Below the pieces are notes generated by a model, which was not told the DNA's origin, searched no databases, and was given only the letters and a program-made list of their open reading frames with translations. Made by a program: the position numbers and the translations under genes. A DNA stretch of 64,000 nt from Diprion similis (lineage: Eukaryota > Arthropoda > Insecta > Hymenoptera > Diprionidae): NCBI RefSeq assembly GCF_021155765.1, contig NC_060112.1, positions 20,212,001-20,276,000 of the forward strand, given 5' to 3'. Numbering within the stretch: position 1 is the first letter of the stretch; every line of letters begins with the position of its first letter. Of the stretch, positions 1,857 to 28,076 are shown piece after piece.

Positions 1857-2662
1857 AAAAAAAGCTATGCAAAGACATAAGTCTACTATTATTTGACTGA
1901 AACGTACCTTAAAATTTTCAGATAAGAGGTATAAATGTGAGATTAAAATTCCATACAGTGAAGAGAATTGTCTGCAAATTTTCAAATGGGTTCTCTTACT
2001 ACCAACAATATACCTATCGCAACAATTGGTATTTAGTAACACAGGGTTACTTTGTTTAAACAAGTTTGATATCTCGTTTATTGGTGTACATAGTTGCTCA
2101 TTAAAATATTCTAGAAAAGTGCATCATACTATGATTTTCGGTTTATAAATCATTGCTGCTATCGTGGAAATTTCTTCTGAAAGAAATTTCGAGGTCCCAG
2201 TCGGTGAGCGCGACAGCATAACTATAGACTGAACGTTCATCTGCCACCTACTGGATGCTGTGAGAGCTGGAAACGTATCGAGCAACCTCAATGCGCAGGG
2301 CAAATGCGCCGGTGGCAATGACATCTGTATGCTTTTGTGTATCGAGCACACATTCCTCGGTGTGTAAGATTGCTTTAAAGAGCGTAGTCGCCGCTTCGAG
2401 TTATCGCGGGAGGGGAGTGAGACTATTTCCACTCCGTGCATAGAGGAGATGCTGCAATGACGAAGTACTCGACATAATGAACCCACAAAGACCCTGTGGC
2501 TGTTTCGTCCCATCAAACTCGCGCGAGCAGTTTGGATGACTAGACGCTCGCGGGCGTCGCGGAATGAAGTTACAACTGAAATAAGTTATGTGATTGCGAC
2601 CTGATCGCAGTGGGTGCAGATCAGCATAATCAGAGTGAAAACCATAAGCTCGGTGTTTGACC
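1857..2662. other. intergenic: CFAP263 3' end and 5' flank/UTR of the LEV-9-like gene
   Basis: No gene is supported here. The first half is AT-rich and probably holds the CFAP263 3' UTR. The second half (about 2400-2662) is richer in GC and CpG and ends in the LEV-9-like start codon, so it is a plausible promoter and 5' UTR. Short ORFs on the minus strand in this stretch show no family features. Confidence 0.5.
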
Positions 2663-5592: not shown

Positions 5593-7906
5593 TTATTTCT
5601 GCTTGACAAGCGTGTTTAGAAGAGTAAAGTACGTAGCTGCAGCACTAACAATCTGCAAAGATCGTAACATATTGATATCGAGATCACGTGAGATAGAGAC
5701 CGTAATGAAATAACAAATGTGACACAATTTTATATCACCGGTATGCTTACCGTAGTTAGCTGGGGCAAATCGACTCTGAAGAATCCATAAGCTGTAAAGC
5801 AAAATGCTCTTTGGGATCGGAGCATCAAATATTTCAATTGATTGCAAATTTCCTTTCCGAAACATAGCCACGGACAGTTGTAAGCAGCAATCGCTACTAA
5901 CTCGGTCTTGTTATGAAAATTAAAGCTATTTGTATCACTCAGTTTATTATGGCTAGGTTTAATAATACACAGGAGTTATTTCAGCTGTCTGGAAAATTCT
6001 AAATGAGGTCAATGAATAAATCATGAAAGTGAATAATGATAGCAAATAGCACTGTCATTTTTGTGACTGACAATGAGCTCACTCACCTCGTGGCTCAATA
6101 TAGTTGAACATCCACAATAAATTGCAACTTCAGACAGGAGTACGACGCCATGCGACAATGGTCCTAAGGTTTCGAAAAATTGACCAACAGCGAACATCTA
6201 GAAGAGCGAAGAGTTCAATTCAGTGTGGGCAACAGTTGAATTACATCATAATCGAGCAACTCTTTATAAAAATTCATACTCTCTAAATATGAATCAGTTA
6301 TAAGTATAATACCACTTGAAAAAACCAGTCTATGTTATATACACTGCAAATCAGTAAAAAAAAATTTTAAAAGTCACTGGATCTTCAATGTATGTGCACT
6401 GGTTTTTTAGGCGGTTTCCTTATATCTATAAATCAGTAAATTTTCTCTGATTCAAATTTATATGGATGAGAGAGAACACTTGCATTAAAACGCAATCTTT
6501 AATCTTTATGTATTGTTGATCTACCTGTTGTATCTGGTGAAGAGATACACAAATCGTGAGAGACGTTACGAGCATTGATGCGAAGAATATTGGACGAAAG
6601 ATTTTTTCTACTCTCTTACACAATCTGTAGGTATGTGGATAATAAGAAGAATATATTCTGTATTGAATGTATAGTATAAGTAAGTACTAATGCTCGAACA
6701 CAAGGATTAATAGGCTTATTACAGAGTATGCAGATAAATCCATATTCATACTCACGAGTACAATTCATTCTGACGATAGACAATCTTGGACAGCCTTACA
6801 GGTACTTGACATTTTTGTTCGTCCGAAACAGCTGTCGACGTAGTTTGTTCAATAATATATTTCAAATCGTATTGGAGAAGCTACAAATAGTTCCAAAATG
6901 TTTCAACATTTACTACCTCTTTATTATTCATTCAAGTTTTTCCTTGCGTAAGGTTTTTCAAAAAGCTGGATTTCGAATACCTTGAAATGAAGACATAGGT
7001 GAGTCAGCAGCTGGAAAAACAACGTATCCGATGATGCAAGGTAAATTAAAAAGTACACTGTTATAGTGTGTTCGACGATCATAACTGGAATGTAATTGCC
7101 AACATAATTTATGTCGAAGGGATATTTCACGGGCATAATGGTCGTGAAATTGTACGCATTATTAACTGTTTTTGATTCAAAGTACTGTTCCAACAGAATC
7201 CTGAAAGCAAAAACCCATCTCAATTTTGCAATCTACCACAATTACGAGTACAGACTGCACCTACTTGTAAGGATGCAGATGAAAAATAGCGGACATTAAC
7301 ATGCATGATAAGAAATAAAAGTGGGTCATTTGGTAGGCCTTCTTTGCCTCAGCCAGCATGACGGTTCTATTTTGTTCCACCTGATACCGATCCTCCCACA
7401 TCATCGATAAGCTTAACAAAATCTCGCGGATCTGCTTATCCTGGAAAATGAGACTGAGTCCCTGCAAGAATATTCAATACCTTAGTAAAGAATAACTAAT
7501 GACAATACTTGTGCTTGTGTTTTAACAATAAACTATGACCTTATTATATTTTATTACTTTACTCTGATATTTTACTATTCTTAATGTGTACATTTGGAAT
7601 TAGATAAATGCGAATGAAGTAAACAACTGATTTCTAAATTATTGTTAATTAATATACCTTAGTTGTTGCCAAGTATCCAGAAAATATAGAACCAATTCCA
7701 CGAATGGTAATTTCCTCGTCGACTTTGAAATGTAGAACCACTTGGTGCCATTCGCCAACAGACCAGACAGTGAGGAGAGCTAATGTCACTAACCCTAGAG
7801 GACTTCCTACTGGATATTGGTCGCCGAAACTTCCTCCAGCTTTTAGTAACAAGACGTTGAGACTAAAGAAATGATCATACTGTTTCTTTGCTTTAGAATC
7901 AATCAT
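5593..7906 (-). CDS. odorant receptor (insect 7tm_6 family), complete and intact
   Basis: Eight minus-strand exons, written 5' to 3' in transcription order: 7906-7658, 7461-7265, 7200-6981, 6880-6756, 6624-6525, 6197-6087, 5906-5751, 5652-5593. They join with consistent phases and GT-AG borders to exactly 406 codons (405 residues plus stop), the normal length for insect odorant receptors. Hydrophobic segments occur at about residues 38-60, near 75, 130-150, 175-220, 275-300, 315-340 and at the C-terminus. Family hallmarks are IVYRQNELYS before the LCKRVEKIF segment, a YCGCSTILSHE loop, AAYNCPW, LMLRSQRAF followed by an aromatic-rich stretch, and a final TYFTLLNTL helix. These receptors form odour-gated cation channels with the co-receptor Orco in antennal neuron dendrites; the ligand cannot be told. 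The ATG at 7906 opens a frame with a typical cytoplasmic N-terminus of about 35 residues. No stops or frameshifts were seen, so it is probably functional. It is a single copy here, whereas such genes often occur in tandem clusters. Confidence 0.88.
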
Positions 7907-8394
7907 GATATCTCGAACTTAGATCCTCAGACAGTAAAGTTTGAATGTCAAGTTTGAACGTACAATGCTAATTCAAACGTAAATCATATATTTCCCATTA
8001 CTTTTGCCTATGTATTTTGCTGGAACAATGATAAAGTGAACTAAGTTCGACAGGTGATTATAATGCGTACATTGCATGAATACTTAATGACAGCCAATTA
8101 TTTCGGTCAGTTGTGGTACATTACGACAAAAGACAAAGTTCAGAACCTTATGGATGCTTTGCTTAGCACCGCAAATATATGTTCAGCTTTTAAAAAACAA
8201 ATAATTCGAAAACTATGTGAGATTAAACGCATTGGTTGGTATACAGCATGAAGATATGAATTTTGGATGTACAAACATATATTTTTGGGAAAATACAATA
8301 TCTAACTGTTATTTTGAATAGACCGTTTCTTGATTTTATTCATTTTCGTGAATATGAAATAAGCCCGATTAATTGAACTGAATAAACTGCAGTA
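7907..8394. other. 5' flank of the odorant receptor gene
   Basis: AT-rich DNA upstream of the receptor start codon on the minus strand, so the promoter should lie here. I see no clear TATA or initiator arrangement. An ORF of 65 codons at 8054-8251 (+) has no recognisable feature. Confidence 0.4.
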
Positions 8395-8790
8395 CACAAA
8401 GTCACCTACATTACCATTTGAGCATTTTGTTCCTCTACATCCAGCGATTGAAATCCTCTCTCGTTAGCCTTTTTTCTGTAATCCATCACTTGATACTCGG
8501 TATACCAATATTTAGCTACTTTCGAATAGTTTACTCTACTCAATATTGATTTGGATTTTGTTGAGTTTTCTTTCGTGATGCATTGTTATCCTCTTTTTCT
8601 CGACGAACTCAATTTTACCTGTCATATCTGGATGATCATTTCGTTATTTTTTGTCAGGGTAATACTTCTACCACATGCAGTTCTTAAATTGGACCTGCGA
8701 AATATATTGGTAGATGTAGAATGGCAAGGGTGCCCCGGCCGTTGTTGAATTGGCTGCAATGTTTGAGATTCATAAAGTGACATTTTTCGA
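8395..8790 (-). other. unassigned coding-like segment, broken or unspliced
   Basis: On the minus strand an open stretch from about 8575 to 8410 encodes a lysine-, glutamate- and tyrosine-rich sequence (ending near SLDVEEQNAQM) and stops at a donor-like gtaatg. Just upstream, 8773-8609 holds a 54-codon ATG frame beginning MSLYESQ, with an acceptor-like cattgcag inside it. Neither segment matches a family I recognise, and in one frame stops separate them. It may be a small gene with short exons, a decayed pseudogene, or chance. Confidence 0.2.
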
Positions 8791-9489
8791 ATTTTAAAAA
8801 CCGCAATAACTAATTAATGCAGGGGTGAGTCAACTCAATTTTGCAAGAGAAATCGATTGCCCGCAGACCGGATACGCCGTCAGCTACTTCATCTCATTTC
8901 TTCATTTTCTCCATTTCAAGACCGTTTCTAGACTAGTTGGGACCCGAGTATTCCGAAAAAGGTATTTGGAGCATCGTGGGACCAACACGTGAGGAGATAC
9001 AAAAAAATACGGGGAAATTTATACTGGCTTCTTATTTTATTCCAGGTTACGTATAGAAAATAGTAACAATACAAAATTATATGGGTGAATCTCGTATCCT
9101 GCTGAGGTGAATTGCACCTGTACTCAGACTGGAAAGTGAGCTGCGCTTACAAACTATAATAATAACTATATCATACAAAATTTTTCATATTCTGCTTATT
9201 ACCATGTATATCACAGTACTTTTCTCTTGTATAGTAGTAAGACTTCTTATGTAATAGTCGTTCATTATATTAGGTTATTTTGTATCTTGAACTCAAATGT
9301 TGTTCCAATAATTAGTCGTGCATTAAATCTTTATAAGAGTACTTTACTAGTGTGAATTATAAGACTTATACCATTTAGCAACTTAGTACACTGACACCTG
9401 AACACTTGTAATAAAACTAAGGCACGTTGAATAAACTGAAACTGGAACTTCGTAATTATGAGTGTCTGATTTTTTTCTTTCACCTCTTT
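8791..9489. other. intergenic, AT-rich, no feature seen
   Basis: No ORF, RNA gene or tandem repeat is supported. The stretch separates the odorant receptor region from the satellite edge. Confidence 0.4.
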
Positions 9490-9740
9490 GAAATCCCAGT
9501 GCGAATTGGATGTTTTTCAGCCGTGATGGGTTTGATTCGTAGCTGGAAGCGTGTCTAGACTATGCGCAATTATTACCTCTAGCAAAATTACATCGATATT
9601 GAACATGAATTGTTCGACGTCAGCTTTTTCTGAGATCCACCAGTAATGGATGGAACCAGAGGAGTGAGCCTGGCTCAGAATCGATTGGCAAAACTCTTGT
9701 CCCACTAATTGGTCCCTCGGAAATGCGAGAAAAGACATTA
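9490..9740 (+). repeat. strongly diverged edge monomer of the 311/312 bp satellite
   Basis: Reading along the array consensus, this stretch keeps recognisable pieces in the correct order. They include a gattcgtagct/gaagcgt block matching the gatgcgttgct/gcagcgt block, a tagcaaaattac block matching tcgcaaaattac, and a ctcagaatcgattggc block matching ctcggaatcgattcgt. Substitutions and small indels are frequent between them. It is therefore an old monomer at the array margin, where homogenisation is expected to be weakest. Confidence 0.7.
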
Positions 9741-11049
9741 AAAATGATGTCAGACCAACTGCAGAGTAATTGCGAAGGAAATTTTTTGTTCTTCGGCTGT
9801 AACTTTTGATGCGTTGCTCGCAGCGTATTGGGACTGCGCTTAATCGATTTCTCTCGCAAAATTACGTCGGAATAGTGCCTCAAAGAATTAATTGCAGCAC
9901 TTTCCAGATATGTCGAAATTTTCGCCAAAAATCCAAAGGGGTAAGCCTTACTTTTTGGTCATTTTCGGAGCCCAAAATTTTTCGTCTCGGAATCAATTCG
10001 TATGACCATCTCTAGAGTAATTCGACCACTAGAAACTCAAAAAACACGTGCAAAAGAACGTCGGACCAACAGCAGAGAAATAACGCTGAAAATCTCCAGT
10101 TTTTCGACTGTAACTTTTGATGCGTTGCTCGCAGCGTATTGGGACTGCGCTCAATCGATTTCTCTCGCAAAATTACGTCGGAATAGTGCCTCAAAGAATT
10201 AATTGCAGCACTTTCCAGATTCGTCGAAATTTTCGCCAAAAATCCAAAGGGGTAAGCCTTACTTTTTTGGTCATTTTCGGGCCTGAAATTTTTTGTTTTG
10301 GAATCGATTCGTATGACCATCTCCAGAGTAATTCGACCCCCAGGAACTCAAAAAACACGTGAAAAAGAGCGTCGGACCAACAGCAGAAAAATGACGCTGG
10401 AAATCTCCAGTTTTTCGACTGTAACTTTTGATGCGTTGCTCGCAGCGTATTGGGACTGCGCTCAATCGATTTCTCTCGCAAAATTACGTCGGAATGGTGC
10501 CTCAAAGAATTAATTGCAGCACTTTCCAGATTCGTCGAAATTTTCTCCAAAAATCCAAAGGGGTAAGCCTTACTTTTTGGTCATTTTCGGAGCCGAAAAT
10601 TTTTTGTCTCGGAATCGATTCGTATGACCATCTCTAGAGTAATTCGACCCCCAGGAACTCAAAGAACACGTGAAAAAGAGCGTCGGACCAACAGCAGAGA
10701 AATGACGCTGGAAATCTCCAGTTTTTCGACTGTAACTTTTGATGCGTTGCTCGCAGCGTATTGGGACTGCGCTCAATCGATTTCTCTCGCAAAATTACGT
10801 CGGAATAGTGCCTCAAAGAATTAATTGCAGCACTTTCCAGATTCGTCGAAATTTTCGCCAAAAATCCAAAGGGGTAAGCCTTACTTTTTGGTCATTTTCG
10901 GAGCCGAAAATTTTTTGTCTCGGAATCGATTCGTATGACCATCTCTAGAGTAATTCGACCCCCAGGAACTCAAAAAACACGTGAAAAAGAGCGTCGGACC
11001 AACAGCAGAGAAATGACGCTGGAAATCTCCAGTTTTTCGACTGTAACTT

Positions 11050-12921
11050 TTGATGCGTTGCTCGCAGCGTATTGGGACTGCGCTCAATCGATTTCTCTCG
11101 CAAAATTACGTCGGAATAGTGCCTCAAAGAATTAATTGCAGCACTTTCCAGATTCGTCGAAATTTTCGCCAAAAATCCAAAGGGGTAAGCCTTACTTTTT
11201 TGGTCATTTTTGGAGCCGAAAATTTTTTGTCTCGGAAACGATTCGTATGACCATCTCTAGAGTAATTCGACCCCCAGGAACTCAAAAAACACGTGAAAAA
11301 GAGCGTCGGACCAACAGCAGAGAAATGACGCTGGAAATCTCCAGTTTTTCGACTGTAACTTTTGATGCGTTGCTCGCAGCGTATTGGGACTGCGCTCAAT
11401 CGATTTCTCTCGCAAAATTACGTCGGAATAGTGCCCCAAAGAATTAATTGCAGCACTTTCCAGATTCGTCGAAATTTTCGCCAAAAATCCAAAGGGGTAA
11501 GCCTTACTTTTTTGGTCATTTTCGAAGCCGAAAATTTTTTGTCTCGGAAACGATTCGTATGACCATCTCCAGAGTAATTCGACCCCCAGGAACTCAAAAA
11601 ACACGTGAAAAAGAGCGTCGGACCAACAGCAGAGAAATGACGCTGGAAATCTCCAATTTTTCGACTGTAACTTTTGATGCGTTGCTCGCAGCGTATTGGG
11701 ACTGCGCTCAATCGATTTCTCTCGCAAAATTACGTCGGAATAGTGCCTCAAAGAATTAATTGCAGCACTTTCCAGATTCGTCGAAATTTTCGCCAAAAAT
11801 CCAAAGGGGTAAGCCTTACTTTTTTGGTCATTTTTGGAGCCGAAAATTTTTTGTCTCGGAAACGATTCGTATGACCATCTCTAGAGTAATTCGACCCCCA
11901 GGAACTCAAAAAACACGTGAAAAAGAGCGTCGGACCAACAGCAGAGAAATGACGCTGGAAATCTCCAGTTTTTCGACTGTAACTTTTGATGCGTTGCTCG
12001 CAGCGTATTGGGACTGCGCTCAATCGATTTCTCTCGCAAAATTACGTCGGAATAGTGCCCCAAAGAATTAATTGCAGCACTTTCCAGATTCGTCGAAATT
12101 TTCGCCAAAAATCCAAAGGGGTAAGCCTTACTTTTTTGGTCATTTTCGAAGCCGAAAATTTTTTGTCTCGGAAACGATTCGTATGACCATCTCCAGAGTA
12201 ATTCGACCCCCAGGAACTCAAAAAACACGTGAAAAAGAGCGTCGGACCAACAGCAGAGAAATGACGCTGGAAATCTCCAATTTTTCGACTGTAACTTTTG
12301 ATGCGTTGCTCGCAGCGTATTGGGACTGCGCTCAATCGATTTCTCTCGCAAAATTACGTCGGAATAGTGCCTCAAAGAATTAATTGCAGCACTTTCCAGA
12401 TTCGTCGAAATTTTCGCCAAAAATCCAAAGGGGTAAGCCTTACTTTTTTGGTCATTTTTGGAGCCGAAAATTTTTTGTCTCGGAAACGATTCGTATGACC
12501 ATCTCTAGAGTAATTCGACCCCCAGGAACTCAAAAAACACGTGAAAAAGAGCGTCGGACCAACAGCAGAGAAATGACGCTGGAAATCTCCAGTTTTTCGA
12601 CTGTAACTTTTGATGCGTTGCTCGCAGCGTATTGGGACTGCGCTCAATCGATTTCTCTCGCAAAATTACGTCGGAATAGTGCCCCAAAGAATTAATTGCA
12701 GCACTTTCCAGATTCGTCGAAATTTTCGCCAAGAATCCAAAGGGGTAAGCCTTACTTTTTTGGTCATTTTCGAAGCCGAAAATTTTTTGTCTCGGAAACG
12801 ATTCGTATGACCATCTCCAGAGTAATTCGACCCCCAGGAACTCAAAAAACACGTGAAAAAGAGCGTCGGACCAACAGCAGAGAAATGACGCTGGAAATCT
12901 CCAGTTTTTCGACTGTAACTT
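11050..12921 (+). repeat. higher-order block: three tandem dimers of 624 bp (types D-C)
   Basis: Within the satellite, monomers anchored at 11050, 11362, 11674, 11986, 12298 and 12610 alternate D, C, D, C, D, C. The 624 bp period is nearly exact, including the paired ccccaaag/ctcaaag difference. The third C copy carries its own agaatcc variant. Confidence 0.85.
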
Positions 12922-13232
12922 TTGATGCGTTGCTCGCAGCGTATTGGGACTGCGCTCAATCGATTTCTCTCGCAAAATTACGTCGGAATAGTGCCTCAAA
13001 GAATTAATTGCAGCACTTTCCAGATTCGTCGAAATTTTCGCCAAAAATCCAAAGGGGTAAGCCTTACTTTTTGGTCATTTTCGGAGCCGAAAATTTTTTG
13101 TCTCGGAATCGATTCGTATGACCATCTCTAGAGTAATTCGACCCCCAGGAACTCAAAAAACACGTGAAAAAGAGCGTCGGACCAACAGCAGAGAAATGAC
13201 GCTGGAAATCTCCAGTTTTTCGACTGTAACTT

Positions 13233-15100
13233 TTGATGCGTTGCTCGCAGCGTATTGGGACTGCGCTCAATCGATTTCTCTCGCAAAATTACGTCGGAAT
13301 AGTGCCCCAAAGAATTAATTGCAGCACTTTCCAGATTCGTCGAAATTTCCGCCAAAAATCCAAAGGGGTAAGCCTTACTTTTTTGGTCATTTTCGGGCCT
13401 GAAATTTTTTGTTTTGGAATCGATTCGTATGACCATCTCCAGAGTAATTCGACCCCCAGGAACTCAAAAAACACGTGAAAAAGAGCGTCGGACCAACAGC
13501 AGAGAAATGACGCTGGAAATCTCCAGTTTTTCGACTGTAACTTTTGATGCGTTGCTCGCAGCGTATTGGGACTGCGCTCAATCGATTTCTCTCGCAAAAT
13601 TACGTCGGAATAGTGCCCCAAAGAATTAATTGCAGCACTTTCCAGATTCGTCGAAATTTCCGCCAAAAATCCAAAGGGGTAAGCCTTACTTTTTTGGTCA
13701 TTTTCGGAGCCGAAAATTTTTTGTCTCGGAATCGATTCGTATGACCATCTCTAGAGTAATTCGACCCCCAGGAACTCAAAAAACACGTGAAAAAGAGCGT
13801 CGGACCAACAGCAGAGAAATGCCGCTGGAAATCTCCAGTTTTTCGACTGTAACTTTTGATGCGTTGCTCGCAGCGTATTGGGACTGCGCTCAATCGATTT
13901 CTCTCGCAAAATTACGTCGGAATAGTGCCTCAAAGAATTAATTGCAGCACTTTCCACATTCGTCGAAATTTTCGCCAAAAATCCAAAGGGGTAAGCCTTA
14001 CTTTTTGGTCATTTTCGGAGCCGAAAATTTTTTGTCTCGGAATCGATTCGTATGACCAACTCTAGAGTAATTCGACCCCCAGGAACTCAAAAAACACGTG
14101 AAAAAGAGCGTCGGACCAACAGCAGAGAAATGACGCTGGAAATCTCCAGTTTTTCGACTGTAACTTTTGATGCGTTGCTCGCAGCGTATTGGGACTGCGC
14201 TCAATCGATTTCTCTCGCAAAATTACGTCGGAATAGTGCCCCAAAGAATTAATTGCAGCACTTTCCAGATTCGTCGAAATTTTCGCCAAAAATCCAAAGG
14301 GGTAAGCCTTACTTTTTTGGTCATTTTCGGGCCTGAAATTTTTTGTTTTGGAATCGATTCGTATGACCATCTCCAGAGTAATTCGACCCCCAGGAACTCA
14401 AAAAACACGTGAAAAAGAGCGTCGGACCAACAGCAGAGAAATGACGCTGGAAATCTCCAGTTTTTCGACTGTAACTTTTGATGCGTTGCTCGCAGCGTAT
14501 TGGGACTGCGCTCAATCGATTTCTCTCGCAAAATTACGTCGGAATAGTGCCCCAAAGAATTAATTGCAGCACTTTCCAGATTCGTCGAAATTTCCGCCAA
14601 AAATCCAAAGGGGTAAGCCTTACTTTTTTGGTCATTTTCGGAGCCGAAAATTTTTTGTCTCGGAATCGATTCGTATGACCATCTCTAGAGTAATTCGACC
14701 CCCAGGAACTCAAAAAACACGTGAAAAAGAGCGTCGGACCAACAGCAGAGAAATGCCGCTGGAAATCTCCAGTTTTTCGACTGTAACTTTTGATGCGTTG
14801 CTCGCAGCGTATTGGGACTGCGCTCAATCGATTTCTCTCGCAAAATTACGTCGGAATAGTGCCTCAAAGAATTAATTGCAGCACTTTCCACATTCGTCGA
14901 AATTTTCGCCAAAAATCCAAAGGGGTAAGCCTTACTTTTTGGTCATTTTCGGAGCCGAAAATTTTTTGTCTCGGAATCGATTCGTATGACCAACTCTAGA
15001 GTAATTCGACCCCCAGGAACTCAAAAAACACGTGAAAAAGAGCGTCGGACCAACAGCAGAGAAATGACGCTGGAAATCTCCAGTTTTTCGACTGTAACTT
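13233..15100 (+). repeat. higher-order block: two tandem trimers of 934 bp (types E-D'-A'')
   Basis: Monomers anchored at 13233, 13544 and 13856 are repeated at 14167, 14478 and 14790. The trimer carries private variants: gaaatgccgctgg in the second unit, ttccacattcg and gaccaactctag in the third. A similar E-D'-A'' trio recurs once more at 20709-21642. Confidence 0.85.
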
Positions 15101-18100
15101 TTGATGCGTTGCTCGCAGCGTATTGGGACTGCGCTCAATCGATTTCTCTCGCAAAATTACGTCGGAATAGTGCCCCAAAGAATTAATTGCAGCACTTTCC
15201 AGATTCGTCGAAATTTTCGCCAAAAATCCAAAGGGGTAAGCCTTACTTTTTTGGTCATTTTCGAAGCCGAAAATTTTTTGTCTCGGAAACGATTCGTATG
15301 ACCATCTCCAGAGTAATTCGACCCCCAGGAACTCAAAAAACACGTGAAAAAGAGCATCGGACCAACAGCAGAGAAATGACGCTGGAAATCTCCAATTTTT
15401 CGACTGTAACTTTTGATGCGTTGCTCGCAGCGTATTGGGACTGCGCTCAATCGATTTCTCTCGCAAAATTACGTCGGAATAGTGCCTCAAAGAATTAATT
15501 GCAGCACTTTCCAGATTCGTCGAAATTTTCGCCAAAAATCCAAAGGGGTAAGCCTTACTTTTTGGTCATTTTCGGAGCCGAAAATTTTTTGTCTCGGAAT
15601 CGATTCGTATGACCATCTCTAGAGTAATTCGACCCCCAGGAACTCAAAAAACACGTGAAAAAGAGCGTCGGACCAACAGCAGAGAAATGACGCTGGAAAT
15701 CTCCAGTTTTTCGACTGTAACTTTTGATGCGTTGCTCGCAGCGTATTGGGACTGCGCTCAATCGATTTCTCTCGCAAAATTACGTCGGAATAGTGCCTCA
15801 AAGAATTAATTGCAGCACTTTCCAGATTCGTCGAAATTTTCGCCAAAAATCCAAAGGGGTAAGCCTTACTTTTTGGTCATTTTCGGAGCCGAAAATTTTT
15901 TGTCTCGGAATCGATTCGTATGACCATCTCTAGAGTAATTCGACCCCCAGGAACTCAAAAAACACGTGAAAAAGAGCGTCGGACCAACAGCAGAGAAATG
16001 ACGCTGGAAATCTCCAGTTTTTCGACTGTAACTTTTGATGCGTTGCTCGCAGCGTATTGGGACTGCGCTCAATCGATTTCTCTCGCAAAATTACGTCGGA
16101 ATAGTGCCTCAAAGAATTAATTGCAGCACTTTCCAGATTCGTCGAAATTTTCGCCAAGAATCCAAAGGGGTAAGCCTTACTTTTTTGGTCATTTTTAGAG
16201 CCGAAAATTTTTTGTCTCGGAAACGATTCGTATGACCATCTCTAGAGTAATTCGACCCCCTGGAACTCAAAAAACACGTGAAAAAGAGCGTCGGACCAAC
16301 AGCAGAGAAATGACGCTGGAAATCTCCAGTTTTTCGACTGTAACTTTTGATGCGTTGCTCGCAGCGTATTGGGACTGCGCTCAATCGATTTCTCTCGCAA
16401 AATTACGTCGGAATAGTGCCTCAAAGAATTAATTGCAGCACTTTCCAGATTCGTCGAAATTTTCGCCAAAAATCCAAAGGGGTAAGCCTTACTTTTTTGG
16501 TCATTTTTGGAGCCGAAAATTTTTTGTCTCGGAAACGATTCGTATGACCATCTCTAGAGTAATTCGACCCCCAGGAACTCAAAAAACACGTGAAAAAGAG
16601 CGTCGGACCAACAGCAGAGAAATGCCGCTGGAAATCTCCAGTTTTTCGACTGTAACTTTTGATGCGTTGCTCGCAGCGTATTGGGACTGCGCTCAATCGA
16701 TTTCTCTCGCAAAATTACGTCGGAATAGTGCCCCAAAGAATTAATTGCAGCACTTTCCAGATTCGTCGAAATTTTCGCCAAAAATCCAAAGGGGTAAGCC
16801 TTACTTTTTTGGTCATTTTTAGAGCCGAAAATTTTTTGTCTCGGAAACGATTCGTATGACCATCTCTAGAGTAATTCGACCCCCTGGAACTCAAAAAACA
16901 CGTGAAAAAGAGCGTCGGACCAACAGCAGAGAAATGATGCTGGAAATCTCCAGTTTTTCGACTGTAACTTTTGATGCGTTGCTCGCAGCGTATTGGGACT
17001 GCGCTCAATCGATTTCTCTCGCAAAATTACGTCGGAATAGTGCCTCAAAGAATTAATTGCAGCACTTTCCACATTCGTCGAAATTTTCGCCAAAAATCCA
17101 AAGGGGTAAGCCTTACTTTTTGGTCATTTTCGGAGCCGAAAATTTTTTGTCTCGGAATCGATTCGTATGACCAACTCTAGAGTAATTCGACCCCCAGGAA
17201 CTCAAAAAACACGTGAAAAAGAGCGTCGGACCAACAGCAGAGAAATGACGCTGGAAATCTCCAGTTTTTCGACTGTAACTTTTGATGCGTTGCTCGCAGC
17301 GTATTGGGACTGCGCTCAATCGATTTCTCTCGCAAAATTACGTCGGAATAGTGCCCCAAAGAATTAATTGCAGCACTTTCCAGATTCGTCGAAATTTTCG
17401 CCAAAAATCCAAAGGGGTAAGCCTTACTTTTTTGGTCATTTTCGAAGCCGAAAATTTTTTGTCTCGGAAACGATTCGTATGACCATCTCCAGAGTAATTC
17501 GACCCCCAGGAACTCAAAAAACACGTGAAAAAGAGCATCGGACCAACAGCAGAGAAATGACGCTGGAAATCTCCAATTTTTCGACTGTAACTTTTGATGC
17601 GTTGCTCGCAGCGTATTGGGACTGCGCTCAATCGATTTCTCTCGCAAAATTACGTCGGAATAGTGCCTCAAAGAATTAATTGCAGCACTTTCCAGATTCG
17701 TCGAAATTTTCGCCAAAAATCCAAAGGGGTAAGCCTTACTTTTTGGTCATTTTCGGAGCCGAAAATTTTTTGTCTCGGAATCGATTCGTATGACCATCTC
17801 TAGAGTAATTCGACCCCCAGGAACTCAAAAAACACGTGAAAAAGAGCGTCGGACCAACAGCAGAGAAATGACGCTGGAAATCTCCAGTTTTTCGACTGTA
17901 ACTTTTGATGCGTTGCTCGCAGCGTATTGGGACTGCGCTCAATCGATTTCTCTCGCAAAATTACGTCGGAATAGTGCCTCAAAGAATTAATTGCAGCACT
18001 TTCCAGATTCGTCGAAATTTTCGCCAAAAATCCAAAGGGGTAAGCCTTACTTTTTGGTCATTTTCGGAGCCGAAAATTTTTTGTCTCGGAATCGATTCGT

Positions 18101-20085
18101 ATGACCATCTCTAGAGTAATTCGACCCCCAGGAACTCAAAAAACACGTGAAAAAGAGCGTCGGACCAACAGCAGAGAAATGACGCTGGAAATCTCCAGTT
18201 TTTCGACTGTAACTTTTGATGCGTTGCTCGCAGCGTATTGGGACTGCGCTCAATCGATTTCTCTCGCAAAATTACGTCGGAATAGTGCCTCAAAGAATTA
18301 ATTGCAGCACTTTCCAGATTCGTCGAAATTTTCGCCAAGAATCCAAAGGGGTAAGCCTTACTTTTTTGGTCATTTTTAGAGCCGAAAATTTTTTGTCTCG
18401 GAAACGATTCGTATGACCATCTCCAGAGTAATTCGACCCCCAGGAACTCAAAAAACACGTGAAAAAGAGCATCGGACCAACAGCAGAGAAATGACGCTGG
18501 AAATCTCCAATTTTTCGACTGTAACTTTTGATGCGTTGCTCGCAGCGTATTGGGACTGCGCTCAATCGATTTCTCTCGCAAAATTACGTCGGAATAGTGC
18601 CTCAAAGAATTAATTGCAGCACTTTCCAGATTCGTCGAAATTTTCGCCAAAAATCCAAAGGGGTAAGCCTTACTTTTTGGTCATTTTCGGAGCCGAAAAT
18701 TTTTTGTCTCGGAATCGATTCGTATGACCATCTCTAGAGTAATTCGACCCCCAGGAACTCAAAAAACACGTGAAAAAGAGCGTCGGACCAACAGCAGAGA
18801 AATGACGCTGGAAATCTCCAGTTTTTCGACTGTAACTTTTGATGCGTTGCTCGCAGCGTATTGGGACTGCGCTCAATCGATTTCTCTCGCAAAATTACGT
18901 CGGAATAGTGCCTCAAAGAATTAATTGCAGCACTTTCCAGATTCGTCGAAATTTTCGCCAAAAATCCAAAGGGGTAAGCCTTACTTTTTGGTCATTTTCG
19001 GAGCCGAAAATTTTTTGTCTCGGAATCGATTCGTATGACCATCTCTAGAGTAATTCGACCCCCAGGAACTCAAAAAACACGTGAAAAAGAGCGTCGGACC
19101 AACAGCAGAGAAATGACGCTGGAAATCTCCAGTTTTTCGACTGTAACTTTTGATGCGTTGCTCGCAGCGTATTGGGACTGCGCTCAATCGATTTCTCTCG
19201 CAAAATTACGTCGGAATAGTGCCTCAAAGAATTAATTGCAGCACTTTCCAGATTCGTCGAAATTTTCGCCAAGAATCCAAAGGGGTAAGCCTTACTTTTT
19301 TGGTCATTTTTAGAGCCGAAAATTTTTTGTCTCGGAAACGATTCGTATGACCATCTCTAGAGTAATTCGACCCCCTGGAACTCAAAAAACACGTGAAAAA
19401 GAGCGTCGGACCAACAGCAGAGAAATGACGCTGGAAATCTCCAGTTTTTCGACTGTAACTTTTGATGCGTTGCTCGCAGCGTATTGGGACTGCGCTCAAT
19501 CGATTTCTCTCGCAAAATTACGTCGGAATAGTGCCTCAAAGAATTAATTGCAGCACTTTCCAGATTCGTCGAAATTTTCGCCAAAAATCCAAAGGGGTAA
19601 GCCTTACTTTTTTGGTCATTTTTGGAGCCGAAAATTTTTTGTCTCGGAAACGATTCGTATGACCATCTCTAGAGTAATTCGACCCCCAGGAACTCAAAAA
19701 ACACGTGAAAAAGAGCGTCGGACCAACAGCAGAGAAATGCCGCTGGAAATCTCCAGTTTTTCGACTGTAACTTTTGATGCGTTGCTCGCAGCGTATTGGG
19801 ACTGCGCTCAATCGATTTCTCTCGCAAAATTACGTCGGAATAGTGCCCCAAAGAATTAATTGCAGCACTTTCCAGATTCGTCGAAATTTTCGCCAAAAAT
19901 CCAAAGGGGTAAGCCTTACTTTTTTGGTCATTTTTAGAGCCGAAAATTTTTTGTCTCGGAAACGATTCGTATGACCATCTCTAGAGTAATTCGACCCCCT
20001 GGAACTCAAAAAACACGTGAAAAAGAGCGTCGGACCAACAGCAGAGAAATGATGCTGGAAATCTCCAGTTTTTCGACTGTAACTT
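15101..20085 (+). repeat. higher-order block with 2181 bp (seven-monomer) period, partly shuffled
   Basis: The order C-A-A-B-D-B-A'' (anchors 15101 to 16971) begins again at 17282 as C-A-A-B, then jumps to A-A-B-D-B. The shared private variant gagcatcgg with ctccaattt appears at matching places in both copies. The register change after 18216 marks an exchange within the block. Confidence 0.8.
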
Positions 20086-23000
20086 TTGATGCGTTGCTCG
20101 CAGCGTATTGGGACTGCGCTCAATCGATTTCTCTCGCAAAATTACGTCGGAATAGTGCCTCAAAGAACTAATTGCAGCACTTTCCAGATTCGTCGAAATT
20201 TTCGCCAAAAATCCAAAGGGGTAAGCCTTACTTTTTTGGTCATTTTTGGAGCCGAAAATTTTTTGTCTCGGAAACGATTCGTATGACCATCTCTAGAGTA
20301 ATTCGACCCCCTGGAACTCAAAAAACACGTGAAAAAGAGCGTCGGACCAACAGCAGAGAAATGATGCTGGAAATCTCCAGTTTTTCGACTGTAACTTTTG
20401 ATGCGTTGCTCGCAGCGTATTGGGACTGCGCTCAATCGATTTCTCTCGCAAAATTACGTCGGAATAGTGCCTCAAAGAATTAATTGCAGCACTTTCCAGA
20501 TTCGTCGAAATTTTCGCCAAAAATCCAAAGGGGTAAGCCTTACTTTTTGGTCATTTTCGGAGCCGAAAATTTTTTGTCTCGGAATCGATTCGTATGACCA
20601 TCTCTAGAGTAATTCGACCCCCAGGAACTCAAAAAACACGTGAAAAAGAGCGTCGGACCAACAGCAGAGAAATGACGCTGGAAATCTCCAGTTTTTCGAC
20701 TGTAACTTTTGATGCGTTGCTCGCAGCGTATTGGGACTGCGCTCAATCGATTTCTCTCGCAAAATTACGTCGGAATAGTGCCCCAAAGAATTAATTGCAG
20801 CACTTTCCAGATTCGTCGAAATTTCCGCCAAAAATCCAAAGGGGTAAGCCTTACTTTTTTGGTCATTTTCGGGCCTGAAATTTTTTGTTTTGGAATCGAT
20901 TCGTATGACCATCTCCAGAGTAATTCGACCCCCAGGAACTCAAAAAACACGTGAAAAAGAGCGTCGGACCAACAGCAGAGAAATGACGCTGGAAATCTCC
21001 AGTTTTTCGACCGTAACTTTTGATGCGTTGCTCGCAGCGTATTGGGACTGCGCTCAATCGATTTCTCTCGCAAAATTACGTCGGAATAGTGCCTCAAAGA
21101 ATTAATTGCAGCACTTTCCAGATTCGTCGAAATTTTCGCCAAAAATCCAAAGGGGTAAGCCTTACTTTTTTGGTCATTTTCGGAGCCGAAAATTTTTTGT
21201 CTCGGAATCGATTCGTATGACCATCTCTAGAGTAATTCGACCCCCAGGAACTCAAAAAACACGTGAAAAAGAGCGTCCGACCAACAGCAGAGAAATGACG
21301 CTGGAAATCTCCAGTTTTTCGACTGTAACTTTTGATGCGTTGCTCGCAGCGTATTGGGACTGCGCTCAATCGATTTCTCTCGCAAAATTACGTCGGAATA
21401 GTGCCTCAAAGAATTAATTGCAGCACTTTCCACATTCGTCGAAATTTTCGCCAAAAATCCAAAGGGGTAAGCCTTACTTTTTAGTCATTTTCGGAGCCGA
21501 AAATTTTTTGTCTCGGAATCGATTCGTATGACCATCTCTAGAGTAATTCGACCCCCAGGAACTCAAAAAACACGTGAAAAAGAGCGTCGGACCAACAGCA
21601 GAGAAATAACGCTGGAAATCTCCAGTTTTTCGACTGTAACTTTTGATGCGTTGCTCGCAGCGTATTGGGACTGCGCTCAATCGATTTCTCTCGCAAAATT
21701 ACGTCGGAATAGTGCCCCAAAGAATTAATTGCAGCACTTTCCAGATTCGTCGAAATTTTCGCCAAAAATCCAAAGGGGTAAGCCTTACTTTTTTGGTCAT
21801 TTTCGAAGCCGAAAATTTTTTGTCTCGGAAACGATTCGTATGACCATCTCCAGAGTAATTCGACCCCCAGGAACTCAAAAAACACGTGAAAAAGAGCGTC
21901 GGACCAACAGCAGAGAAATGACGCTGGAAATCTCCAGTTTTTCGACTGTAACTTTTGATGCGTTGCTCGCAGCGTATTGGGACTGCGCTCAATCGATTTC
22001 TCTCGCAAAATTACGTCGGAATAGTGCCTCAAAGAATTAATTGCAGCACTTTCCAGATTCGTCGAAATTTTCGCCAAAAATCCAAAGGGGTAAGCCTTAC
22101 TTTTTGGTCATTTTCGGAGCCGAAAATTTTTTGTCTCGGAATCGATTCGTATGACCATCTCTAGAGTAATTCGACCCCCAGGAACTCAAAAAACACGTGA
22201 AAAAGAGCGTCGGACCAACAGCAGAGAAATGACGCTGGAAATCTCCAGTTTTTCGACTGTAACTTTTGATGCGTTGCTCGCAGCGTATTGGGACTGCGCT
22301 CAATCGATTTCTCTCGCAAAATTACGTCGGAATAGTGCCTCAAAGAATTAATTGCAGCACTTTCCAGATTCGTCGAAATTTTCGCCAAGAATCCAAAGGG
22401 GTAAGCCTTACTTTTTTGGTCATTTTTAGAGCCGAAAATTTTTTGTCTCGGAAACGATTCGTATGACCATCTCTAGAGTAATTCGACCCCCTGGAACTCA
22501 AAAAACACGTGAAAAAGAGCGTCGGACCAACAGCAGAGAAATGACGCTGGAAATCTCCAGTTTTTCGACTGTAACTTTTGATGCGTTGCTCGCAGCGTAT
22601 TGGGACTGCGCTCAATCGATTTCTCTCGCAAAATTACGTCGGAATAGTGCCCCAAAGAATTAATTGCAGCACTTTCCAGATTCGTCGAAATTTTCGCCAA
22701 AAATCCAAAGGGGTAAGCCTTACTTTTTTGGTCATTTTCGAAGCCGAAAATTTTTTGTCTCGGAAACGATTCGTATGACCATCTCCAGAGTAATTCGACC
22801 CCCAGGAACTCAAAAAACACGTGAAAAAGAGCATCGGACCAACAGCAGAGAAATGACGCTGGAAATCTCCAATTTTTCGACTGTAACTTTTGATGCGTTG
22901 CTCGCAGCGTATTGGGACTGCGCTCAATCGATTTCTCTCGCAAAATTACGTCGGAATAGTGCCTCAAAGAATTAATTGCAGCACTTTCCAGATTCGTCGA

Positions 23001-26000
23001 AATTTTCGCCAAAAATCCAAAGGGGTAAGCCTTACTTTTTGGTCATTTTCGGAGCCGAAAATTTTTTGTCTCGGAATCGATTCGTATGACCATCTCTAGA
23101 GTAATTCGACCCCCAGGAACTCAAAAAACACGTGAAAAAGAGCGTCGGACCAACAGCAGAGAAATGACGCTGGAAATCTCCAGTTTTTCGACTGTAACTT
23201 TTGATGCGTTGCTCGCAGCGTATTGGGACTGCGCTCAATCGATTTCTCTCGCAAAATTACGTCGGAATAGTGCCTCAAAGAATTAATTGCAGCACTTTCC
23301 AGATTCGTCGAAATTTTCGCCAAAAATCCAAAGGGGTAAGCCTTACTTTTTGGTCATTTTCGGAGCCGAAAATTTTTTGTCTCGGAATCGATTCGTATGA
23401 CCATCTCTAGAGTAATTCGACCCCCAGGAACTCAAAAAACACGTGAAAAAGAGCGTCGGACCAACAGCAGAGAAATGACGCTGGAAATCTCCAGTTTTTC
23501 GACTGTAACTTTTGATGCGTTGCTCGCAGCGTATTGGGACTGCGCTCAATCGATTTCTCTCGCAAAATTACGTCGGAATAGTGCCTCAAAGAATTAATTG
23601 CAGCACTTTCCAGATTCGTCGAAGTTTTCGCCAAGAATCCAAAGGGGTAAGCCTTACTTTTTTGGTCATTTTTAGAGCCGAAAATTTTTTGTCTCGGAAA
23701 CGATTCGTATGACCATCTCTAGAGTAATTCGACCCCCTGGAACTCAAAAAACACGTGAAAAAGAGCGTCGGACCAACAGCAGAGAAATGATGCTGGAAAT
23801 CTCCAGTTTTTCGACTGTAACTTTTGATGCGTTGCTCGCAGCGTATTGGGACTGCGCTCAATCGATTTCTCTCGCAAAATTACGTCGGAATAGTGCCTCA
23901 AAGAACTAATTGCAGCACTTTCCAGATTCGTCGAAATTTTCGCCAAAAATCCAAAGGGGTAAGCCTTACTTTTTTGGTCATTTTTGGAGCCGAAAATTTT
24001 TTGTCTCGGAAACGATTCGTATGACCATCTCTAGAGTAATTCGACCCCCTGGAACTCAAAAAACACGTGAAAAAGAGCGTCGGACCAACAGCAGAGAAAT
24101 GATGCTGGAAATCTCCAGTTTTTCGACTGTAACTTTTGATGCGTTGCTCGCAGCGTATTGGGACTGCGCTCAATCGATTTCTCTCGCAAAATTACGTCGG
24201 AATAGTGCCTCAAAGAATTAATTGCAGCACTTTCCAGATTCGTCGAAATTTTCGCCAAAAATCCAAAGGGGTAAGCCTTACTTTTTGGTCATTTTCGGAG
24301 CCGAAAATTTTTTGTCTCGGAATCGATTCGTATGACCATCTCTAGAGTAATTCGACCCCCAGGAACTCAAAAAACACGTGAAAAAGAGCGTCGGACCAAC
24401 AGCAGAGAAATGACGCTGGAAATCTCCAGTTTTTCGACTGTAACTTTTGATGCGTTGCTCGCAGCGTATTGGGACTGCGCTCAATCGATTTCTCTCGCAA
24501 AATTACGTCGGAATAGTGCCTCAAAGAATTAATTGCAGCACTTTCCAGATTCGTCGAAATTTTCGCCAAAAATCCAAAGGGGTAAGCCTTACTTTTTGGT
24601 CATTTTCGGAGCCGAAAATTTTTTGTCTCGGAATCGATTCGTATGACCATCTCTAGAGTAATTCGACCCCCAGGAACTCAAAAAACACGTGAAAAAGAGC
24701 GTCGGACCAACAGCAGAGAAATGACGCTGGAAATCTCCAGTTTTTCGACTGTAACTTTTGATGCGTTGCTCGCAGCGTATTGGGACTGCGCTCAATCGAT
24801 TTCTCTCGCAAAATTACGTCGGAATAGTGCCTCAAAGAATTAATTGCAGCACTTTCCAGATTCGTCGAAATTTTCGCCAAGAATCCAAAGGGGTAAGCCT
24901 TACTTTTTTGGTCATTTTTAGAGCCGAAAATTTTTTGTCTCGGAAACGATTCGTATGACCATCTCTAGAGTAATTCGACCCCCTGGAACTCAAAAAACAC
25001 GTGAAAAAGAGCGTCGGACCAACAGCAGAGAAATGACGCTGGAAATCTCCAGTTTTTCGACTGTAACTTTTGATGCGTTGCTCGCAGCGTATTGGGACTG
25101 CGCTCAATCGATTTCTCTCGCAAAATTACGTCGGAATAGTGCCTCAAAGAATTAATTGCAGCACTTTCCAGATTCGTCGAAATTTTCGCCAAAAATCCAA
25201 AGGGGTAAGCCTTACTTTTTTGGTCATTTTTGGAGCCGAAAATTTTTTGTCTCGGAAACGATTCGTATGACCATCTCTAGAGTAATTCGACCCCCAGGAA
25301 CTCAAAAAACACGTGAAAAAGAGCGTCGGACCAACAGCAGAGAAATGACGCTGGAAATCTCCAGTTTTTCGACTGTAACTTTTGATGCGTTGCTCGCAGC
25401 GTATTGGGACTGCGCTCAATCGATTTCTCTCGCAAAATTACGTCGGAATAGTGCCCCAAAGAATTAATTGCAGCACTTTCCAGATTCGTCGAAATTTTCG
25501 CCAAAAATCCAAAGGGGTAAGCCTTACTTTTTTGGTCATTTTCGAAGCCGAAAATTTTTTGTCTCGGAAACGATTCGTATGACCATCTCCAGAGTAATTC
25601 GACCCCCAGGAACTCAAAAAACACGTGAAAAAGAGCGTCGGACCAACAGCAGAGAAATGACGCTGGAAATCTCCAGTTTTTCGACTGTAACTTTTGATGC
25701 GTTGCTCGCAGCGTATTGGGACTGCGCTCAATCGATTTCTCTCGCAAAATTACGTCGGAATAGTGCCCCAAAGAATTAATTGCAGCACTTTCCAGATTCG
25801 TCGAAATTTTCGCCAAAAATCCAAAGGGGTAAGCCTTACTTTTTTGGTCATTTTCGAAGCCGAAAATTTTTTGTCTCGGAAACGATTCGTATGACCATCT
25901 CCAGAGTAATTCGACCCCCAGGAACTCAAAAAACACGTGAAAAAGAGCGTCGGACCAACAGCAGAGAAATGACGCTGGAAATCTCCAATTTTTCGACTGT

Positions 26001-26763
26001 AACTTTTGATGCGTTGCTCGCAGCGTATTGGGACTGCGCTCAATCGATTTCTCTCGCAAAATTACGTCGGAATAGTGCCTCAAAGAATTAATTGCAGCAC
26101 TTTCCAGATTCGTCGAAATTTTCGCCAAAAATCCAAAGGGGTAAGCCTTACTTTTTGGTCATTTTCGGAGCCGAAAATTTTTTGTCTCGGAATCGATTCG
26201 TATGACCATCTCTAGAGTAATTCGACCCCCAGGAACTCAAAAAACACGTGAAAAAGAGCGTCGGACCAACAGCAGAGAAATGACGCTGGAAATCTCCAGT
26301 TTTTCGACTGTAACTTTTGATGCGTTGCTCGCAGCGTATTGGGACTGCGCTCAATCGATTTCTCTCGCAAAATTACGTCGGAATAGTGCCTCAAAGAATT
26401 AATTGCAGCACTTTCCAGATTCGTCGAAATTTTCGCCAAAAATCCAAAGGGGTAAGCCTTACTTTTTTGGTCATTTTTAGAGCCGAAAATTTTTTGTCTC
26501 GGAAACGATTCGTATGACCATCTCTAGAGTAATTCGACCCCCTGGAACTCAAAAAACACGTGAAAAAGAGCGTCGGACCAACAGCAGAGAAATGACGCTG
26601 GAAATCTCCAGTTTTTCGACTGTAACTTTTGATGCGTTGCTCGCAGCGTATTGGGACTGCGCTCAATCGATTTCTCTGGCAAAATTACGTCGGAATAGTG
26701 CCTCAAAGAATTAATTGCAGCACTTTCCAGATTCGTCGAAATTTTCGCCAAAAATCTAAAGGG

Positions 26764-28076
26764 CGGCATCTTGATTATGCACGAGTGCACGATTCTGGAA
26801 TAATGAGAATAAATTAGTCTATTTTGTTACTACGAAAAAGCGATACTATTGTATTCGAATTTCTTTTTACTTTTTCGTATTCTCCATTGATCACACATCC
26901 ATTTAGAAAACCTAGATTTTTTATTTTTCAGCATAAAAACCCAACTGAGCACTACTGACGTGACCATGTAGTTTGGACTCGCATCACTTTGCTGTTGAGT
27001 CGGTACCCATTGTCAAGAGCGTCATCTTGCCGCCGACGGCGTGTCGTTGCCGCGTCAATTTGACGCCGGTGAAAATCCAACCAAAGACGCCTACTACTCG
27101 GCAAATTTTTGTTACCATTACTCGGCAGGTAATAAGAGGCTTTGTCAACGTGTCGGTAGCTTCTTTATCGATAGGCAGCGTTTATCACGCAATTCATAAG
27201 CATATAAAACGCCGTTAGAGCGAAAATAATTGTATCTGATCGTACAGTTATTGGGCAGATCGCTAAAAGATCTAATTTGCACTTTATCCGATCATTTTGA
27301 AACCATTCTGGAACTCAACCACACAATCGTTTGCATATTTTGCATAAGATAACCCTCGTTAATTCTCATTTTTCATTGTTAAATATCAAAATACATGAAT
27401 GTGGCGTAATTACCACGGTGGTAATTACCCATTCATACATTATGATTCGTATGACTGTATAGAACTACTTCGGGTGCGTTCCGAAATTAACTGCCAAGGC
27501 CAAAAACTCCCTAGGATAGAGGCAGAGCTACCGATGAACTGGGCCACGCAAAAGAGATTAAAGATCGTTGACAGCACTAAGAGCCAATATCGGAACGCAC
27601 GTTATATTAGCCTCAAAATGATGGCCCTGTGCGCTCTGCGGACCTCCCCCCGCGGCCGAATATTAGAGTCGTTTTCCAACTTTGTTTTCCGGACCTATCA
27701 CGATGAGTAAAGAGTTGTTGAATTTGAATACGTTTACTCAGGCTGCTCTATGGAATATTGAGTGAGAATTTTTATTATTATAAGTATGTATTCCACGGCT
27801 TACTTCAGAAACTCCTTAGAAGAATGAGTACGGATTCAGTCCGTGCTATGGTGTGCTACAGATGGTAGCATACAGATGCGTTTAGGAACAGTCAACACGA
27901 GCACCTTTTCGCGCGGTTTTTAGCCGAAGAGTTATCGAACAGAGTAACCTGTGCATTGTGCGGATAGCAGACTACCTATCCATTTGATGTATTTACGTTA
28001 AACATTTCGGCATTCAAGATTTCCCAAAGAACACTTACAGCATATTCGATATTGTCCCAAACTGATAGGTATCAAA
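26764..28076. other. intergenic: satellite right flank and 5' flank/UTR of MSH6
   Basis: The satellite stops sharply at about 26763 and unique sequence follows. A GC-richer patch lies at 26990-27140, and a purine/GC patch near 27600-27670. Two perfect inverted repeats are present (27052-27066 and 27406-27428). Open frames of 81 and 103 codons at 26973-27218 and 27399-27710 show no domains, and the first begins only with TTG. The MSH6 promoter and 5' UTR must lie in the last few hundred bases. Confidence 0.4.
27406..27428. repeat. perfect 23 bp palindrome
   Basis: Two 11 bp arms (gtaattaccac and its exact complement) flank a single central base. The arms contain TAAT cores, as bound by homeodomain factors, but no function can be assigned from sequence alone. 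Confidence 0.8.

Follow-up and report, generated by a model that had tools for sequence, protein, structure and literature searches.

The closest known case to the locus studied here, judged by description, is Tetris/TIR-220 of Drosophila virilis, a coding-less inverted-repeat element with arrays derived from its inner repeats. The accessible parts of its report present it as a non-autonomous transposon without coding capacity, for which no transposase was found, and describe kb-size satellite arrays of up to 66 copies arising from its inner tandem repeats, the long ones being flanked by element ends (PMC4079207). Tandem-repeat growth inside such elements is a recognised route to satellites according to the accessible sections of a review (PMC12628747), so that, as far as these two sources go, the process is known in kind. 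In Crassostrea gigas, Helitron-associated satellites are highly scattered and the arrays of the main satellite consist of about six monomers on average, as stated in the accessible text (PMC8268682). The euchromatic satellite repeats of Tribolium castaneum lie beside genes and belong to a pericentromeric satellite, again according to the accessible text (PMC3411249, PMC5844308). For the sawfly Diprion pini, the available record of a 1996 study lists four transcribed satellite subfamilies, which would be possible relatives if the present genome is that of a sawfly.

The locus is part of a window of 64,000 bp (the whole stretch of DNA analysed), which corresponds to C8:20212001-20276000 of a 269 Mb assembly in 60 contigs. 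Set against Tetris as described in the accessible parts of its report, the differences concern location (amplification in beta-heterochromatin, here an array between genes), amount (0.08% of the assembled genome for flanking domain and repeat, here ~3% for the monomers), the position of the repeat (within the inverted repeats, here after the inverted repeat) and target duplications (8–10 bp, here a 3-bp signal) (PMC4079207). Private variants in sampled arrays are a further feature of the present family. As in the accessible account of the oyster, scattered satellite arrays are carried by mobile elements, but the arrays reach tens of kb instead of about six monomers and no Helitron ends are present (PMC8268682). 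As in Tribolium castaneum, satellite repeats adjoin genes, whereas the accessible text names no inverted-repeat shell for the repeats of that species (PMC3411249, PMC5844308). Among the titles and abstract openings searched, a scope outside which most subscription papers lie, no description was found of the monomer, of the element or of one shell family with unrelated arrays.

The following features were located in the window:

8832..8916, minus strand: remnant, in inverted orientation, of the element's left subterminal region (monomer fragment and adjoining left-end sequence), found with nhmmer and by matches to other left ends
8921..9514, plus strand: left module (ML) of ~600 bp (nhmmer E 5e-166, with a model that includes the window copy; independent relatives elsewhere at 65–80%)
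9492..9748, plus strand: decayed first satellite copy (nhmmer run 9492-26763; blastn 9531-9595 at 72%)
9749..26763, plus strand: satellite array of 311/312-bp units, 54.6 copies (Tandem Repeats Finder, monomer split and alignment)
26765..27082, plus strand: right module (MR), whose outer end is the right terminal inverted repeat, with the terminus GTGAAAATCCAACC at 27069-27082

Tandem Repeats Finder assigned to the array a period of 312, 54.6 copies, 98% matches and 0% indels, and no interruption was found anywhere along it. Splitting it yields 55 units, each 311 or 312 bp long except the last, which ends at 192 bp. This bears out the first-pass annotation, which had reported about 54 monomers of 311/312 bp running head-to-tail without a gap. 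The 53 inner units share a mean identity of 98.1% (minimum 95.5%) after monomer split and alignment. The first unit deviates from the consensus at 25 sites, as expected at the edge of a satellite. Among the 55 units there are 26 distinct sequences, with up to eight identical copies. Being long and head-to-tail, with a homogenised unit that is abundant genome-wide, the array qualifies as satellite DNA. The neighbouring genes are also placed as that annotation had them. Exon pieces of a minus-strand 7tm_6 odorant receptor gene lie at 5748-7918, ~1.8 kb from the array, and the apparent start codon of MSH6, whose pieces match MutS domains I–V, is located at 28077, which is 1313 bp past the array end (given as 1.3 kb before) and 995 bp past the element end.

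Open frames in the array reach 283 aa according to the ORF list and recur since the unit length of 312 is divisible by 3. No known RNA, such as a ribozyme, was found in 8300-12300 at E values up to 1 or in the whole window at gathering scores, and no tRNA was found with bacterial settings. Columns 50–124 of the monomer are invariant among the 53 inner window monomers. Across the consensuses of 11 arrays, low-variation stretches were observed at ~60–120 and 160–200, with p values of 0.006, 0.03, 0.05, 0.19 and 0.45 for five measures. Given this uneven support, a conserved protein-binding block in the monomer is not claimed.

Both flanks of the array have relatives elsewhere in the genome. Among the best 40 candidates scored, identities were 65–86% for the left flank (from ~8915) and 70–75% for the right flank (26765 to ~27085). 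MR begins one base after the last monomer, and many of its relatives end within a few bases of one sharp point, which corresponds to position 27082 of the window. A left-end model built without the window copy matches 26861-27080 in reverse (E 6e-32), and in other copies the left end and the right end were found to be inverted repeats of each other. The shared sharp terminus and the mutually inverted ends mark the unit as a transposon bearing long inverted repeats. Its termini read 5'-GGCTGGATTTTCAC...GTGAAAATCCAGCC-3', a pattern that matches 12 + 15 times genome-wide (reversed control 0) and that the right terminus of the window fits with no mismatch. In 10 pairs, the inverted repeats of one element are 63–84% identical, the two highest values spanning only 31 and 51 bp. 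The family thereby shows terminal inverted repeats and a shared sharp end, as expected of Class II elements, and the window contributes the right end only. That the window copy has no recognisable left inverted repeat counts against the transposon reading. On the left, the window contains ML, with no ORF of at least 90 aa, and the inverted remnant, in which nhmmer detected a satellite fragment on the minus strand (8832-8887) and of which 8837-8916 matches, reversed, the left ends of elements at loci L030, L032, L040 and L041.

Nine elements with both termini were compared for target duplications. Exact 3-bp duplications (AAA, AGA, TAT and TTA) were found in four, while 1.0 is expected by shuffling (p = 0.010); there is no excess of 2-, 4- or 5-bp duplications in these pairs. 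The absence of a duplication in the remaining five of the nine counts against the transposon reading. Compared to the 8–10 bp of Tetris, no exact 4- or 5-bp match exists in the nine pairs, which rules out longer exact duplications in them. PIF/Harbinger elements produce 3-bp duplications, usually TWA, and encode a DDE_Tnp_4 transposase. The duplication length of the present family fits, and TTA alone among its four duplications corresponds to TWA. PF13359 genes are present in the genome, though seldom near these elements. Pfam comparison revealed no transposase in the ORF pieces scanned from four short elements (four sets, part of the pieces available), so the short copies look non-autonomous, like many such elements. 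This negative result also counts against the transposon reading. Three short elements (L043, L049 and L050) have long inner stretches in common that are 72–93% identical.

Elsewhere, the element ends bracket 2.9–48.5 kb, and the monomer content of the copies ranges from less than one unit to many kb. Four short elements of 2.9 to 6.0 kb (L043, L044, L049 and L050) hold at most about one monomer beside the inverted repeat, and the compact copy L032 combines about one monomer with a truncated left inverted repeat. Four long copies (L028, L030, L037 and L040) begin on the left with an inverted repeat, followed by monomer(s) and then the ~600-bp module, and are closed on the right by the other inverted repeat; at L041, no module follows the monomers in the 400 bp examined. 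Eight longer brackets were examined by one-kb samples from the middle. In a blind prediction test, all ten samples from seven of these (9.3–48.5 kb) consisted of 311–314-bp satellite throughout, including both samples from the longest bracket (C12:4461643-4510171). Since the satellite makes up only ~3% of the genome, this result favours the transposon model. The left ends of two brackets (C3:0.90-0.93 and C3:5.74-5.76 Mb) were set by module matches without exact termini, as were both ends of the eighth, at C6:21.49 Mb. This bracket of 7.4 kb contains a different array, 98% uniform and with ~23 copies:

C6:21494078-21498544 (L055 1078-4600 and L030 1-1044): 191-bp tandem array within a transposon shell of this kind

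The 191-bp array matches neither the 312-bp unit nor the modules at E 0.01. Tandem structure of other kinds was observed at two further places. The element copy L049 (C4:21.67 Mb), which is without a satellite array, carries a short-period minisatellite with shifts of ~26 bp at 4014-4843, and at C10:19558756-19583794 part of the left module recurs every 2.2–2.8 kb, suggesting a longer composite tandem unit.

Array edges chosen independently of the modules gave a comparable picture. Arrays reached via satellite search alone provided 6 left and 5 right edges, and a module was present at 10 of these 11 (6/6 left, 4/5 right). Nine of the ten adjoin the left module, with the outer array ends lying beyond the stretches read, and one (L023) adjoins the left inverted repeat. 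L023 is itself part of the left-end model, but it has an independent match to the right module of L034 in reverse (79 bp, 80%, E 4e-14). At some edges, a decayed stretch of up to ~1 kb (L009) precedes the module. The right edge of the array at C8:26.48 Mb (L022) has no module within 5.6 kb, which counts against the transposon reading, as does the finding that nine edges meet the left module instead of an inverted repeat. Five further arrays (L019, L020, L021, L024 and L025) fill the stretches read, so their edges lie outside this count.

Sequence variants bear on where the monomers multiplied. A 97-bp stretch of the window consensus, allowing up to 3 mismatches, has 49 matches in the genome, and all 49 lie in the window array (reversed control 0). 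For the array at C3:3.75 Mb, 29 of 31 matches lie in the array itself and the other two, with 3 mismatches, at C10:17.75 Mb. The variant of the C13 array was counted 272 times; among 100 matches listed, the 92 with 0–1 mismatch are all on C13:151-188 kb, and 8 with 2 mismatches are on C4:20.0 Mb. The C13 variant is not private at 2–3 mismatches. Comparison of 416 monomers from 15 array loci placed the nearest relative in the own array for 412. Mean identity was 96.5% within loci and 83.0% between loci, the latter rising to 87.5% when the comparison is confined to the 11 loci that have 13 or more monomers. The four misses are both monomers of C12, one of 34 in C2:18.15 and one of 3 in C6. Monomers from overlapping stretches (L014/L015 and L022/L023) were counted once, and the two sampled stretches each of C1:3.55, C2:17.08, C3:11.49, C13 and C3:0.90 were taken as one array. 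In the window array, runs of monomer types recur 38 times, compared to 6.7 in shuffles (maximum 22), and the longest recurring block comprises 5 units, compared to at most 4 in shuffles, which indicates copying in blocks of several units. The private variant and the clustering of monomers by array indicate that the window array grew in situ from the inner repeat of the transposon. Inverted repeats of the same element that are only 63–84% alike point to old shells with young contents.

Based on these results, we conclude that the array very probably arose by overgrowth of the inner repeat in a non-autonomous DNA transposon, one whose terminal inverted repeats are long (~240 bp); similar inner-repeat growth seems to have occurred at many other places in the genome. 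A copy with few monomers would have inserted in the interval that separates MSH6 from the odorant receptor gene. Loss or rearrangement of its left end would have followed, and after that multiplication of the repeat on site, several units per block. Candidate routes for this multiplication are unequal sister-chromatid exchange, copying induced by breaks, or rolling-circle products that re-insert where they arose. Through multiplication on site, the array would stay young and homogeneous even as the ends of the transposon decay. The vehicle is visible here as a transposon with paired ends, which bears on the old question of how satellites arrive between genes and remain uniform. Copies with about one monomer and copies of tens of kb occur in one genome, and together with the private variants this makes growth in place separable from spread. 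The first-pass annotation had offered a young euchromatic expansion, a seed array or proximity to a centromere as readings. The first of these holds for the array, with its variant found here only (49/49) and its site between genes. The second is unsupported, as no other place has the window variant within 3 mismatches. The annotation had overlooked that the array forms the interior of a transposon.

The contents of the shell family differ by copy and comprise 312-bp arrays, the 191-bp array at C6:21.49 Mb and a minisatellite, within shells that are decaying. One reading of this, which we regard as rather unlikely, is that the shell of inverted repeats in itself triggers tandem expansion of any content, separately at each insertion, perhaps through long inverted repeats that stall replication. 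If this were true, the transposon would act in chromosome arms as a mobile nursery of satellites.

The first-pass annotation had also suggested comparing the monomer with the whole assembly, in which it proved to be common. A monomer 50-mer with up to 3 mismatches gave 13,198 + 12,473 = 25,671 matches, whereas the reversed control gave 0, which rules out chance. Multiplied by 312 bp, this corresponds to ~8 Mb or ~3% of the 269 Mb assembly, with more diverged copies left out. The element or satellite was found at no fewer than 78 loci (at least 78, from top-scoring or first-listed matches, with same-locus rows dropped and merging at 60 kb) on 12 of the contigs C1–C14, some near contig ends and many mid-contig. 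Among the matches listed, 72 loci on nine contigs of known length were compared with the positions of PIF/Harbinger transposase genes, which they avoid: 2 loci lie within 0.5 Mb (9.0 expected, p = 0.004), 7 within 1 Mb (12.2 expected, p = 0.054) and 8 within 2 Mb (17.4 expected, p = 0.003). The only such gene found on C8 is 16 Mb from the window. PF13359 matches form blocks at C1 13.5-18.0, C2 0.4-3.3, C3 18.1-18.9, C4 6.0-9.8, C10 0.2-3.1 and C13 10.4-11.0 Mb, and single matches also occur outside them. These blocks are possibly pericentromeric; if they are assumed to mark heterochromatin, the satellite is a feature of the chromosome arms. TTAGG repeats were observed at the start of C1.

High copy number, homogeneity and a share of ~3% of the genome would suit a pericentromeric satellite, or one adjacent to a centromere, that extends into genes at its edge. 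However, genes lie within 2 kb on either side, transposon modules bound the array, and the at least 78 loci are spread over 12 of C1–C14 away from the transposase-rich blocks (2/72 within 0.5 Mb, expectation 9.0, p = 0.004). We therefore consider this explanation very improbable; the suggestion that the array is next to a centromere is unsupported, although not disproved. Insertion of satellite circles is a general idea for dispersed satellites, and an origin from circles of a source array that entered euchromatin with no transposon vehicle would match it. The absence of the window variant elsewhere and the modules at 10 of the 11 unselected edges speak against such an origin, which appears improbable, while circles could take part in growth on site.

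The carrier might instead be a Helitron, as with the oyster satellites, inner tandem repeats being frequent in Helitrons according to the accessible text (PMC8268682). The ends found here are long inverted repeats that start with GGCTGGATTTTCAC and finish with GTGAAAATCCAGCC, with a 3-bp duplication signal, and this makes a Helitron exceedingly improbable. Helitrons have 5'-TC and 3'-CTRR ends, no target duplication and no long inverted repeats, a combination that the termini of the present family do not show. A single assembly stands behind the array, so a misjoin or a wrong copy number has to be weighed as well. Such an artefact is hard to reconcile with the non-identical units (26 types among 55), the variant private to the locus and the edge layout common to independent loci, both edges entering modules that flank other arrays. 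An artefact is accordingly most improbable, and the exact array length could be off. Long uniform arrays between genes need not represent centromeres or assembly errors, and caution is advised in reading them as such.

Two minor observations concern the surroundings of the element. A further dispersed repeat, ~130 bp long, occupies 27471-27610 of the window, in the interval from the element to MSH6. Among the matches listed, ~28 other loci carry it at 79–87% identity, and it is regarded as MITE-like because several of these loci are inverted pairs. On the plus strand at ~2657-5172, the ORF list shows open frames with apparent repeated complement-control (sushi) modules, as judged by eye.
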